The translations under genes were made by a program, and so were the position numbers. A stretch of DNA of 64,000 bases from positions 132,485-196,484 of the forward strand of contig PASN01000010.1 of NCBI GenBank assembly GCA_002711995.1, written 5' to 3'. Shown piece by piece: positions 5,050 through 12,492 of this stretch. The notes below the pieces were generated by a model, which was given only the letters and a program-made list of their open reading frames with translations, was not told the DNA's origin and did no database searches. Each line of letters opens with the position of its first letter. The stretch's first letter is position 1. This stretch comes from Halobacteriovoraceae bacterium. Its GTDB lineage: Bacteria; Bdellovibrionota; Bacteriovoracia; Bacteriovoracales; Bacteriovoracaceae.

Positions 5050-6480
5050 ATGTTTTTTAAAAGAATAAAGACTCCAGGATTAGCTCACTTATCTTACTTT
5101 ATTGCGACAAATGGAGTTGCAATTGTTGTGGATCCTAAGCGGGACATTGATGAATACTTAAAGCTGGCAATAGAAAACAATGCCCAGATCAAATATGTGT
5201 TCGAAACGCACAGGCAAGAGGACTTCGTTATTGGATCGAATGAGCTGCATGAGAAAACAGGCGCTAAAATCATAGGTGGAAGGCACCCACTCTTTAGTCA
5301 TTGCGACATCCAATTGGAAGATGGGGAGTTCTTCAAGATAGAAGATTTGACATTTTTAAGTTTAAGCACTCCAGGACACACACCTGAAAGTTTCTCCTAC
5401 GGTGTATATTTAAAAGATAGAGACACATGCTGGGGCGTTTTTACCGGGGACACCCTTTTTGTGGGCGACACAGGAAGAACGGACCTTTCAGACCCTGACA
5501 AGACTTCGGAAAATGCGAAATTAATATACAACAGTGTCAGGTCAAAAATAGCAAACCTTGGAGATCAATCTTTGATTTTCCCGGCACACGGTTCTGGCTC
5601 TGTATGCGGCGGCGCTATCGCAGACTATGACCAAACAACAATTGGCTATGAGAAAACCTACAACCCAGTATTCACAATGGGTGAAGATGAGTTTACATGC
5701 CACAAAGTTAAAGAACGAATTCCAAGGCCTCCATACTTTAGTCTGATGGAGAAAATCAATTATGAGGGAGGTTGGAGAATTGAACAGGACCTAGCTAAAA
5801 TTAAAGCTCTAAGTCCTGAGCAGTTTTTAGAAATGTCCAATAAAGGGATAATAATCGACACACGTGAGCCCGAGGCATTTGCTTCAGGACATATACCAGG
5901 CTCTTACAATATATGGTTGGATGGACTTCAAGTCTTTGGCGGGTGGTTCTGTAAAAAGGACACTCCAGTTTTCCTTGTGCTTGACAGGCATGATGACCTC
6001 AACACCGCTCGGCTCATGCTATCCAGACTTGGTGTGGGCAGAATCAAGGCCTTTCTCTCAGGAGGCATCGAGTCCGTTAGAAATTCAGGTTACAACTTAG
6101 AAAGCTTCGGCGTGATTTATCCCAAAGAGCTTTTCCACAATAAGCGTAATTTCGAAATTTTTGATGTTAGAGAGATCACAGAGTTCGAAAGTGGGCACAT
6201 TGAGAATTCAAAACATTGCTTTGTAGGCCATCTTGAGGACTATTTAATAAAACACAGGCCCCCTAACAAGTCTATCGCCACAATATGCAGTGTTGGGCAT
6301 AGAGGCGGAATTGCTGCGAGTATATTTGCCAAAATGGGACACAAGAACGTTTATAACGTGCTGGGTGGAATGAAGGCATGGAATTCGCGAGGTTTACCAA
6401 TCCAAGAAGGGAAAGAGACTAAAGGAAAACGGGAAATAAAAAATATTGAAAATGTGGCGCAATGGGGCAGCACCCATTAA
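5050..6480 (+). CDS. MBL-fold / double rhodanese protein (persulfide dioxygenase-like)
   Basis: An N-terminal metallo-beta-lactamase domain (about 1-235) is followed by two rhodanese domains (about 260-350 and 365-450). This layout belongs to ETHE1-like persulfide-oxidising enzymes. The usual THxHxDH motif reads THRQEDF, keeping the first His and the Asp but losing two His. TPGHTPES, FTGDTLFVGDTGRTDL and FPAHGSG are intact, so the His/His/Asp triad that binds iron in ETHE1 appears preserved. The first rhodanese lacks a catalytic Cys (VFLVLDRHDD). The second has TICSVGHRGG with Cys in place. I prefer ATG 5050, which follows AAAGGA at a five-base spacing; ATG 5044 overlaps that site. It is followed by an SDR gene 21 bases downstream. 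Confidence 0.85.
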   Translation: MFFKRIKTPGLAHLSYFIATNGVAIVVDPKRDIDEYLKLAIENNAQIKYVFETHRQEDFVIGSNELHEKTGAKIIGGRHPLFSHCDIQLEDGEFFKIEDLTFLSLSTPGHTPESFSYGVYLKDRDTCWGVFTGDTLFVGDTGRTDLSDPDKTSENAKLIYNSVRSKIANLGDQSLIFPAHGSGSVCGGAIADYDQTTIGYEKTYNPVFTMGEDEFTCHKVKERIPRPPYFSLMEKINYEGGWRIEQDLAKIKALSPEQFLEMSNKGIIIDTREPEAFASGHIPGSYNIWLDGLQVFGGWFCKKDTPVFLVLDRHDDLNTARLMLSRLGVGRIKAFLSGGIESVRNSGYNLESFGVIYPKELFHNKRNFEIFDVREITEFESGHIENSKHCFVGHLEDYLIKHRPPNKSIATICSVGHRGGIAASIFAKMGHKNVYNVLGGMKAWNSRGLPIQEGKETKGKREIKNIENVAQWGSTH

Positions 6481-8277: not shown

Positions 8278-10626
8278 TTAGCTTCCGCAGCTTATACATT
8301 CGTCTTTATTCTCCAAAGAACAAATCATCTGCTCAGTCATCTCTTCTTTACTGGCCTGATTGCTCTTGTCACGAATGGTGAACTTAATTGCATCGGCGGC
8401 AGCTTTGGTTCTAAGGTAATACATACCCGTTTTAAGGCCAAGCTTCCAAGCGTAGAAGTGCATAGAGTTAAGTTTGCCCATATTAACATCGGTCATATGG
8501 ATATTTAATGACTGAGACTGGTCAACAAACGCTCCCCTGTCCGCGGCCATTTCCAATATGGATTTCTGCTTAATCTCCCAGGAAGTCCTATAAAGATCTT
8601 TTAAGTCTTGTGGAATTTGCTCAATATTTTGGATTGATCCATTATGTTGAATGATCAAGTCCTTCATTGTCTCATTCCAAAGGTCCAGCTTTATAAGGTC
8701 TTTTACAAGATACTTATTAACCATAGTGAATTCACCGGAAAGAGTTCTTCTAGTGTAGATGTTTGAAGTAAATGGCTCAATGCATTCATTGTTTCCAAGA
8801 ATCTGGGAAGTTGATGCTGTAGGCATAGGAGCAACCAACAATGAGTTTCTCACGCCATCTTTCATGATCTTTTTTCTCAACCCTTCCCAATCCCATCTAT
8901 TGCCAGGTTTTACATTCCACATATCAAACTGAAATTCTACCTTTGATATAGGTGAGCCTTCATAGCTTTCATATGGTCCATCTTTCAAGGCAACCTCGTG
9001 AGATGCTGTAAGAGCCGCAAAGTAGATAGTTTCAAAGATGTCACGATTAAGCCTTTTTGCCTGTTCTGAATCAAATGGAACTTTTAACTTCGCAAAAGGG
9101 TCTGCAAGGCCTTGAACGCCAATACCAATCGGCCTATTTTTGAGATTTGAGTACCTCGCCTCCGGCACCGGGTAGTAGTTCAGATCAATAATTTTATTGA
9201 GGTTTTTGGTGATCGTTTTTGTGATCTCAAAAAGCTTGTCAAAATCATAACCTTCCTCAGTAACAAACTTCCCAAGGGAAATTGAAGCAAGGTTGCACAC
9301 TGCGATTTCATTTTCATCAGTGTATTGAATGATTTCAGTACAAAGGTTGCTTGATTTAATTGTTCCAAGGTTTTTTTGGTTCGACTTGGCGTTTGCAGCA
9401 TCCTTATAGAGCATAAAAGGAGATCCAGTCTCCACTTGAGACTCAAGGATTGAGAACCAAAGCTTTCTCGCACTCACTTTTTGCTTTGCTCGTCCCTCTT
9501 TTTCATATCTTGTGTAAAGCTCATTAAACTCTTTGCCGTGGCACTCATGAAGATTTGGGGCCTCATGTGGACAGAACAATGACCATTCAGCGTCTTGTTC
9601 CACTCTTTCCATGAATAAGTCATTTACCCAAAGCGCGTAAAATAGATCTCTTGCTCTTAGCTCTTCTTTACCGTGGTTCTTTTTAAGTTCCAAGAAGTCA
9701 AAGATATCCGCATGCCACGGTTCAAGATAAATGGCAAAAGCTCCCTTTCTTTTTCCACCACCCTGGTCAACATATCTTGCAGTGTCATTGAAAACTCTAA
9801 GCATTGGAACGATGCCGTTGGACTCGCCATTCGTGCCCTTAATGAATGTTCCTTTTGCGCGGATATTGTGAGCGCTCAGTCCAATACCGCCAGCTGACTG
9901 ACTAATCAACGCGCACTGCTTAAGAGTGTCGTAAATTCCTTCAATTGAGTCATTTTTCATTGTTAGAAGAAAGCATGAAGACATCTGAGGCTTAAGTGTT
10001 CCAGCGTTAAACAGTGTCGGAGAAGCGTGGGTAAACCACTTTTGACTCATAAGGTGATAGGTCTCCATAGCAGCGTCGATGTCTTGCTCATGGATGCCCA
10101 GCGCAACCCTCATAAGCATATGCTGAGGTCTTTCAACAATCTTGCCATTTACTTTTAATAGATACGACCTTTCAAGAGTTTTAAAGCCAAAGTAGTCATA
10201 TTCAAAGTCTCTTGAATAAGCTATTTCCGTCTCAATCCTTTCCTTATGTTTTTTAGCGTTTTCATAAAGGGTGTCAGATATTAAAGCTGTTTGCTCGCCG
10301 GTTTTTGGATCAACATGGTTGTAAAGAAGTCCCATAGTCTCCAAAAAAGAATCTTTTGTATTTCTATGCAAATTACTCATGGAGATTCTTGCGGCAAGAG
10401 TTGAGTAGTCTGGGTGAATGGATGTCATGTAGGCCGCAACCTCTGCTGACAAGTTGTCCAGCTCAACAGTTGAGATGCCGTCAAAGATTCCTTGAATTGT
10501 TCTTTTTGAAACTTCAACCGCGTCCACATGAGCAATATTCAAACCGTATGTTAGCTTTTGAATACGGTGGGTGATTTTATCAAACTGAACGCTTTCTTTT
10601 TTTCCTGATCTTGTAGTTACAAACAT
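8278..10626 (-). CDS. nrdA: Class Ia ribonucleoside-diphosphate reductase, alpha subunit
   Basis: NrdA reduces ribonucleoside diphosphates to deoxyribonucleotides using a thiyl radical delivered by NrdB. The 782-residue protein has an N-terminal ATP-cone (about 1-90), which allows allosteric activity control, and the catalytic barrel. Visible motifs include [17 protein letters not shown] with the first redox Cys, NLCTEIIQY with the radical Cys, [11 protein letters not shown] with the second redox Cys, and [15 protein letters not shown]. The C-terminal tail ends CISCGS, the CxxC pair that passes electrons from thioredoxin or glutaredoxin. It reads like the eukaryote-type subgroup. It follows nrdB by 15 bases in the same operon, an order opposite to that of many bacteria. 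Confidence 0.96.
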
Positions 10627-10641
10627 TGTTTACCTCTTTCC

Positions 10642-11616
10642 TTAGAAGTCAAAATTAGTATCAAACTCAAAGCTGTTGTCTTGAAGTGAACTCATGACGC
10701 CGGCCTTTTGATATTCGCTAACACGCTTTTCAAAAAAGTTTGTTTTACCTTGAAGAGAGATTAGCTCCATCCAATCAAAAGGATTGGTGGCGTTGTAGTA
10801 GGCCTCGTACCCAAGTTCTAGCAACAGTCGATCCGCAACAAACTCAATGTACTGACACATCAAGTCCGCATTTATCCCGATTAAGGATACTGGGAGCGCC
10901 TCGGATATAAATTTCTGCTCCAACGCCACCGCCTCAGTGATAAGTTCGTAAACTTTCTCTTTTGCTGGTTTGTTTTGAATATGTTTGTAAAGAAGACATG
11001 CAAAGTCTGTGTGAAGTCCTTCATCACGACTAATCAATTCATTAGAAAAGGTAAGCCCTGGCATTAGTCCACGCTTTTTAAGCCAAAAGATAGAGCAGAA
11101 GCTTCCGGAGAAGAAGATACCCTCTACGGCAGCAAATGCAAGCAGTCTTAAAGCGAAGTCATCTCCACTTTCGATCCACTTTAAGGCCCAATCAGCTTTT
11201 TCAGCAATGCATGGAACATTTTCTATCGCTCTGAAAAGATAGTCTTTCTCTTTGTTGTCTTGGATGTAAGTGTCAATCAAAAGGCCATATGTTTCAGCAT
11301 GAATGTTTTCCATAGCGATCTGGAATCCATAAAAACATCTTGCTTCAGGCACTTGTAGATCATTGTAAAATCTTAATGCAAGGTTCTCATTAACGATGCC
11401 ATCACTTGCGCTAAAGAATGCAAGAACATGCTTGATGAAGTGCTTTTCATCATCGTTTAACTTTTTCCAGTCTTCAAGGTCTTGATATAAATCGATCTCC
11501 TCAGCGGTCCAAAAGGACGCCATGGACTTTTTGTACATTTCCCAAATGTCATCGTATTGAATAGGCAATAAAACAAAACGGTCGTTGGACTCCTCCAACA
11601 AAGGCTCTTTCTTCAT
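10642..11616 (-). CDS. nrdB: Class Ia ribonucleotide reductase, beta (radical) subunit
   Basis: NrdB carries the di-iron/tyrosyl radical cofactor. Metal-ligand regions are visible: LEDWKKL (Asp), VNENLALRF (Glu), [16 protein letters not shown] (Glu, His and the radical Tyr), [13 protein letters not shown] (Glu) and RDEGLHTDF (Glu, His). These segments closely follow eukaryote-like R2 proteins. I start at ATG 11616 because AGAGAGGAGAG lies directly upstream; the ATG at 11634 precedes that site and has no good ribosome binding site of its own. It is the first gene of nrdB-nrdA and lies about 85 bases downstream of a cobalamin-riboswitch-like leader. Confidence 0.96.
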
Positions 11617-11699
11617 GAAACTCTCCTCTCTCATGGTGTGTGTGTATGATTACGGGGTTTACTTATAAAATGTGCTGATTTTTAATTTTTGCGCTGAAA

Positions 11700-11812
11700 C
11701 ATAAAAGTCACTCTCCTCGGTGTTTGTGATGACTTCGTAATCAGGATCTGACTTTACAGTTGCGGGACAGTGCTGGAATTTCACCTAGCTTCACTAACTA
11801 CGAACACTTTGT
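11700..11812 (-). promoter_or_regulatory. Candidate cobalamin riboswitch upstream of nrdBA
   Basis: Read on the minus strand, this leader contains the most conserved part of the cobalamin riboswitch core: GGTGAAATTCC at 11785-11775, then CTGTCCCGCAACTGTAA at 11770-11754, directly followed by AGTCAGATCCTG (11753-11742), which resembles a shortened B12 box. GCTAGG and CCAGC frame the first element as a helix. Outer pairing is possible between TTCGTA (11804-11799) and TACGAA (11739-11734). The arms that normally separate the core from the B12 box are missing, so this is a compact or divergent member. A competing hairpin (AAGTCATCAC with GTGACTT) follows and could be the expression platform. Cobalamin riboswitches upstream of class Ia nrd operons are known in Streptomyces. 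Confidence 0.78.
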
Positions 11813-11907: not shown

Positions 11908-12492
11908 ATGAATATTAAATACTTACAAGCTATTGTTTTTGATCTTGACGGAACCTTAGTCGACTCAAGATTGGACTTTGATAAAATGCGCTCCGACTTA
12001 GGCTTTCCTCCCGGTGTTCCAATATTGGAACACCTCTCACTGCAAAAAGATGAGAACTACAAAAAGGAATGTCACAAAATAATCTTTGAACATGAAGAGA
12101 GAGGGGTTGATGTGGCAACCCTTATGCCAGGTGTGCCCAAACTGCTTCAGGCCATAAAATCAAAAGGTCTTAAAACAGGGCTATTAACGAGAAACAATTC
12201 TCATGTGACCAAGCTTACTCTGGAGAAGTTTAAGCTTAGCTTTGACATGGTTTTTTCTAGAGAAGATTGCAAACCTAAGCCACACCCTGAAGGACTTTTA
12301 CTCATGGCCAAGAGTTGGAAGGTAAAAACTGAGAACATGCTCTATATTGGTGACTTTCAATTTGACTTGGAGACTGCCAAAAATGCGAATGCAAAATCAT
12401 GCTTATATCTAAACTCATATAATCATGGTTTAAAAGCTAAGGCAGACTACGTTTTGGAATCTTATGAGGCGCTCATTAGAAACCTCTCCTAA
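11908..12492 (+). CDS. HAD-superfamily hydrolase (phosphoglycolate phosphatase-like)
   Basis: This 194-residue HAD phosphatase has all four motifs: FDLDGTLVDS (nucleophile Asp and acid/base Asp), LLTRNN (Thr), CKPKPHPEGL (Lys) and YIGDFQFDLETAKN (acidic pair). The cap between motifs I and II is helical and about 60 residues long, as in phosphoglycolate phosphatase and related enzymes. The substrate cannot be read from sequence. It is divergent from nrdB; its promoter must lie within or beyond the riboswitch region on the opposite strand. Its 3' end overlaps the C-terminal remnant of glutamate dehydrogenase on the other strand. Confidence 0.85.
   Translation: MNIKYLQAIVFDLDGTLVDSRLDFDKMRSDLGFPPGVPILEHLSLQKDENYKKECHKIIFEHEERGVDVATLMPGVPKLLQAIKSKGLKTGLLTRNNSHVTKLTLEKFKLSFDMVFSREDCKPKPHPEGLLLMAKSWKVKTENMLYIGDFQFDLETAKNANAKSCLYLNSYNHGLKAKADYVLESYEALIRNLS

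Follow-up and report, generated by a model that had tools for sequence, protein, structure and literature searches.

A cobalamin riboswitch aptamer of the class II (RF01689) type can be assigned to positions 11734-11804 on the minus strand of the window, the whole stretch of 64,000 nucleotides that was analysed, where it precedes the class Ia ribonucleotide reductase genes nrdBA. Comparison with related leaders indicates that the riboswitch acts on the ribosome site that belongs to a short upstream open reading frame (ORF), a point that the initial annotation of this DNA had not recognised. The riboswitch probably turns off nrdBA when vitamin B12 is sufficient for the class II reductase NrdJ, and it would do so by way of the hidden ribosome site of the upstream ORF.

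The assignment of the compact, 71-nt aptamer draws on RF01689, on an independent covariance model and on covariation. A cmscan search with all of Rfam matched RF01689 to 11734-11804 (-) at 35.1 bits (E 2.4e-6), 1.4 bits below the gathering score of 36.5, and returned no other Rfam family with E < 1 in the aptamer's 1-kb stretch; a genome-wide RF01689 search ranked the window copy first. RF00174 overlaps the aptamer at 23.2 bits, below its own cut-off of 31.5. To avoid circularity, a further model, R2, was trained on ten riboswitches of relatives, with those of nrdB leaders left out; in the 64 kb its sole match is the window copy, at 71.1 bits (E 2.4e-22). The match is not due to chance. The initial annotation had proposed a cobalamin-riboswitch-like leader at 11700-11812. 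Its coordinates are correct and happen to extend as far as the upstream ORF's start codon. The riboswitch identity is upheld by the E-values of RF01689 and of the independent model; as for the Rfam run that it suggested, RF01689 gave a significant E-value, but both RF01689 (35.1 against 36.5) and RF00174 (23.2 against 31.5) scored under their cut-offs.

The aptamer junction is closed by an 11-bp P1 helix, in which 11804-11794, the 5' strand, pairs with 11744-11734. The P4 hairpin (11772-11789) carries the conserved core GGTGAAATTCC at 11785-11775; CTGTCCCGCAACTGTAA (11770-11754) lies between this core and the B12 box AGTCAGATCC (11753-11744), which follows directly. All three motifs are on the minus strand, in the order and place that had been claimed for them. 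The L5 loop UCCCG (11763-11767, minus strand) fits the L5 consensus UCCCG (PMC10653944) and is the predicted half of a kissing loop. In P6, CAG of the B12 box (11750-11748) pairs with CUG (11759-11757), and across 71 riboswitches the middle pair occurs as G-C (52 cases) or U-A (19 cases), with no mismatches. The arms between core and B12 box, whose loss had been taken as the mark of a compact variant, are indeed absent in the window; however, this is usual for a class II cobalamin riboswitch (RF01689). The arm before the B12 box is missing from two of the nine nrdB leaders described below (G000, the window's genome, and G001), and the other seven have a single short arm. The core, the reduced arm before the B12 box and the L5-L13 kissing loop are features of the RF01689 AdoCbl-II or env8-type riboswitches, from which the window copy differs by a score slightly below the Rfam cut-off.

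The same aptamer is found in front of nrdB in relatives. nrdB is present in 88 of 143 related genomes, and exactly nine of the 57 nrdB leaders examined contain the aptamer core, the window's own genome among the nine. A covariance model picks the identical nine of the 57 leaders and, with E allowed up to 1, nothing further. For at least five of these leaders the score lies above the gathering cut-off of RF01689 or RF00174. Among the nine genomes, four genera of the window's family are represented (g1, g36, g43 and g48). The earlier proposal that the leader targets nrdBA is supported. Covariance models were used for the alignments because MAFFT by itself misaligned P1 and the variable arm. Standard pairs occupy 92.4% of cells in the nine leaders, compared with at most 45% in slid controls, and the covariation score is 0.59 against 0.22 after shuffling, with two-sided changes in 14 of 21 pairs. 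The sequence of P1 is rewritten in nearly every species while its pairing is kept (two-sided changes in 10 of 11 pairs); three of the five P4 pairs covary, and 98% of P4 cells are paired. For 70 riboswitches of the phylum, 89.4% of cells are paired and the covariation is 0.60, compared with 0.17 when shuffled. On a NrdB tree calculated without G077 (a fragment), the nine leaders fit one gain followed by losses, the alternative being several gains. G016, from a lineage without the leader, is also without NrdJ.

A P13/L13 hairpin, CAC-CGAGGAGA-GTG (11709-11722, minus strand), was recognised by the complementarity of its flanks across riboswitches. Its L13 sequence CGAGGA (11719-11714) is predicted to form the kissing loop with L5, leaving one A bulged out of the duplex UCCCG/CG(A)GGA; a kissing loop with a bulge has also been reported for env8HyCbl (PMC10653944). 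CGAGGA is invariant in all nine nrdB leaders, about 25 nt past the B12 box. The P13 flanks vary yet stay complementary (CAC/GTG, TCC/GGA, TTC/GAA, CCA/TGG and ACC/GGT), being 89% paired compared with 76% when shuffled, and none of 5000 shuffles was as good. Among 67 riboswitches, the mean L5-L13 duplex energy is -5.08 for cognate and -4.34 for permuted combinations (0 of 20000 permutations), and variants of L5 are matched by variants of L13, e.g. UCGCG with CCCGCG and UGCCG with CCCGAGC. These patterns identify L5 and L13, with P13, as a putative cobalamin-riboswitch kissing loop. The same arrangement is known in the btuB, env8 and metE riboswitches, and L5-L13 stabilises P13 at the ribosome site (PMC10653944). 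Within L13 lies the Shine-Dalgarno-like GAGGAG (11713-11718, minus strand), and the same CCCGAGGAGG module is the direct Shine-Dalgarno sequence of btuB. Across the phylum, the module of most riboswitches, that of btuB included, stands 4-10 nt upstream of the controlled gene's start codon. In the window, L13 overlaps a Shine-Dalgarno sequence that is assigned to the upstream ORF and not to nrdB.

The upstream ORF (11682-11702, minus strand) comprises six codons, ATG TTT CAG CGC AAA AAT TAA (MFQRKN*), and an A/C-rich spacer of 65 nt (11617-11681) separates its stop from the start of nrdB. This spacer contains nrdB's own Shine-Dalgarno sequence GAGAGGAG (11630-11621). The gene nrdB (10642-11616, minus strand; PF00268, 396 bits) encodes the class Ia small subunit, and its orthologues align from 11616; this start is preferred over 11634 because the Shine-Dalgarno sequence falls between the two. 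On the same strand, nrdA (8278-10626; TIGR02506, 731 bits; PF02867 and PF03477) encodes the class I large subunit with an ATP-cone. An upstream ORF follows the CCCGAGGAGG module in all nine nrdB leaders, two of which offer TTG starts alone. In seven of the nine, an ATG is found 2-12 nt past the module, where composition alone would give about 1.4 (P 5e-5, a statistic that ignores shared ancestry), and G067 and G084 are without a well-placed ATG. The encoded peptides, MFQRKN in the window and MPLKN, MNTHN, MVGNTLN, MREIS and MLVEFE elsewhere, with longer frames in G044, G067 and G084, are not conserved in sequence among the nine leaders. From the upstream-ORF stop to the nrdB start, the distance runs from overlap to about 100 nt and is usually 29-98 nt. 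The nrdB start itself is 74-122 nt past the module and has a separate Shine-Dalgarno sequence, outside the aptamer-L13 unit, in each of the nine.

Other candidates for the expression platform were considered. A window scan found no terminator-like site between the aptamer and nrdB; the lone terminator-like site (11601-11582) falls within the nrdB coding region, and an intrinsic terminator was rejected as the platform. A Rho site in the spacer was rejected as a conserved feature, C exceeding G in six leaders and not in G037, G067 and G049. Minimum-energy folds, which cannot represent the kissing loop, gave no consistent picture of sequestration of the nrdB Shine-Dalgarno sequence in the nine leaders.

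The genome of the window (3.70 Mb, 96% complete) was examined by family searches. The initial annotation had predicted a class II reductase elsewhere in the genome, and a B12-dependent NrdJ of 1168 residues was found at G000:C19 (PRK07562, 1936 bits, cut-off 1737; PF08471). NrdJ or a fragment of it occurs in all nine riboswitch-bearing genomes and is absent from six of the 12 examined relatives without the leader (hypergeometric chance about 0.017, uncorrected for relatedness). In G067 it is known from a C-terminal fragment (31 residues, 94% identity). In G049, nrdJ (C172:6057-9615) is split into two overlapping frames by a frameshift or an assembly error. The window's genome also encodes a PduO-type cobalamin adenosyltransferase and Rho, and the family searches gave no match to NrdD. 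A second riboswitch in this genome (RF00174, 38.3 bits) precedes the gene of a BtuB-like receptor (TIGR01779, 204 bits, cut-off 600), and there the CCCGAGGAGG module is btuB's own direct Shine-Dalgarno sequence.

No riboswitch was found at nrdJ (locus L038). Two NrdR-box-like sites, ATACTATATGTAGTGC and CAACCAGATATTGTGT, lie 41 bp apart upstream of nrdJ (L038 at about 5730-5800, G000:C19), and NrdR is encoded at G000:C6. Similar sites occur upstream of the riboswitch in the nrdB leaders of genus g43. At two loci of sister lineages, L083 (G019) and L086 (G060), NrdJ is present and the nrdB riboswitch absent, and NrdR boxes close to the consensus (1-2 mismatches) stand in the nrdB leaders, about 55-60 nt upstream of nrdB; these boxes are perhaps a replacement of riboswitch control.

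In the proposed mechanism, binding of coenzyme B12 would lock UCCCG of L5 onto CGAGGA of L13, and this lock would stabilise P13 and hide the GAGGAG ribosome site. B12 would thereby stop ribosome loading on the six-codon upstream ORF, which is presumed to be translated, and expression of nrdB would then drop if it depends on translation of that ORF. Such coupling could operate through reinitiation, through ribosome loading, or through lost ribosome protection against Rho or RNase, tight reinitiation being less certain because the gap from the stop to nrdB is longer and more variable than in ppe2. The expected direction is OFF, i.e. in a B12-rich cell class Ia nrdBA would be off and class II NrdJ would be used. 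The closest tested precedent appears to be the ppe2 riboswitch of M. tuberculosis, in which an L13-bearing hairpin masks the Shine-Dalgarno sequence of uPPE2 and PPE2 expression needs uPPE2 translation (PMC11260477). Coupling there is mainly by termination-reinitiation, and uPPE2 overlaps ppe2 (AUGA) (PMC11260477). Both systems have a compact class II-type aptamer and an L13 region over the Shine-Dalgarno sequence of an upstream ORF, with the main start not directly masked; unlike the AUGA overlap of ppe2, most of the ORFs here are 5-7 codons long, the usual gap from their end to nrdB is 29-98 nt, and the target is another. We consider it an even call that a btuB-type riboswitch with its full ribosome-site module has been placed before nrdBA, with a dedicated short ORF serving as the ribosome landing pad and the start of the essential reductase left untouched, and that this design has been kept in at least four genera.

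Several observations weigh against this explanation. nrdB has its own Shine-Dalgarno sequence and may be translated independently of the upstream ORF; the stop-to-start distance is variable, the peptides are unconserved and two leaders have TTG starts only; and the genomes of genera g5 (four) and g18 (two) carry NrdJ with no riboswitch detected before nrdB. An alternative that we hold to be unlikely, though it keeps some weight, is a real cobalamin riboswitch with an incidental upstream ORF, in which GAGGAG would be kept for pairing with L5 and nrdBA would be controlled by Rho-dependent termination, RNA decay or an undetected terminator. It accords with the unconserved peptides, with the nrdB Shine-Dalgarno sequence, which falls beyond the aptamer-L13 unit in every one of the nine leaders, with the lack of a well-placed ATG in G067 and G084, and with the presence of Rho in the genome. 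Pairing with L5, however, requires CGAGGA and not a start codon, yet an ATG stands at 2-12 nt in seven of nine leaders, and the CCCGAGGAGG module initiates real genes elsewhere. A decayed relic that has lost its regulatory role is highly improbable: in its favour are the 1.4 bits by which the window copy falls short of the Rfam cut-off and the loss of the riboswitch from sister lineages, but the core, L5 and L13 are intact, and P1, though rewritten per species, remains paired (92% of cells compared with at most 45% in slid controls). Slightly less credible still are control of the divergent HAD-hydrolase gene (11908-12492, plus strand), which is on the opposite strand, and a B12-sensing ON switch, for which the activating corrinoid riboswitch of cobT in A. 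halodurans is a known example (PMC10653944) but against which stand the OFF-switch anatomy of a kissing loop with a hidden ribosome site and the contradiction, under the NrdJ logic, of B12 activating a B12-independent isozyme.

Repression of nrdBA by B12 through the upstream ORF, the preferred reading, can be set beside other B12-controlled reductases. Streptomyces nrdABS has a coenzyme B12 riboswitch (Borovok et al., 2006, cited in PMC5962746); to the extent that the citing paper describes it, there too a class Ia reductase operon is under a B12 riboswitch and the cell also has a class II enzyme. The Streptomyces system differs in being actinobacterial and, by the title of the paper, transcriptional, whereas the system here has a class II-type aptamer and an upstream-ORF platform and belongs to Bdellovibrionota. 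B12 elements precede nrdDG in Desulfovibrio vulgaris and Desulfuromonas (PMC545781), where a B12-independent reductase is likewise under a B12 element with NrdJ present, but that reductase is class III, not class Ia. In Chitinophagaceae bacterium DXS (L213, Bacteroidota), a cobalamin riboswitch is also directly upstream of a homologous nrdB; it differs in having a class I aptamer (RF00174, 65 bits) and in lacking the CGAGGA module. Outside Bdellovibrionota, the NrdB sequences nearest to that of the window's nrdBA (8278-11634) come from Bacteroidota, as do most of the best matches; they share about 69-74% identity, a pattern suggestive of horizontal transfer of nrdBA.

Further cobalamin riboswitches were met in front of other genes. 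In about ten genomes of the family, one precedes a gene for a hotdog-fold (PF03061) acyl-CoA thioesterase-like protein. In two of these leaders, L040:783-1418 (G001) and L057:1816-2402 (G078), the CCCGAGGAGG module starts a seven-codon ORF (MNFIITS and MNISSDL, respectively), and the thioesterase-like gene is 82-116 nt downstream. At L028 (G054) and L065 (G009), the gene directly behind a cobalamin riboswitch encodes a small protein that matches a helix-turn-helix domain weakly, at scores under the Pfam cut-offs, and that may be a regulator controlled by B12. At L047:1724 (G029), the gene behind a cobalamin riboswitch encodes a DUF6580 membrane protein, which may be a transporter related to cobalamin.

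Control of B12-independent reductases by B12 riboswitches is already known, and class II riboswitches usually have this compact form; what is new, as far as the literature found shows, is the place before nrdBA in this family together with the conserved upstream-ORF platform. In the literature found, a riboswitch targeting an upstream ORF has so far been described for M. tuberculosis (PMC11260477), and the nine species provide a comparative series for a little-studied mechanism in which a riboswitch would directly target a tiny upstream ORF. One genome has the module directly at btuB and at the upstream ORF before nrdB, which allows direct control to be compared with indirect control. The riboswitch would extend the B12-dependent choice between reductase classes to a family related to predatory bacteria, and the dNTP supply in this family may hinge on B12 from outside.
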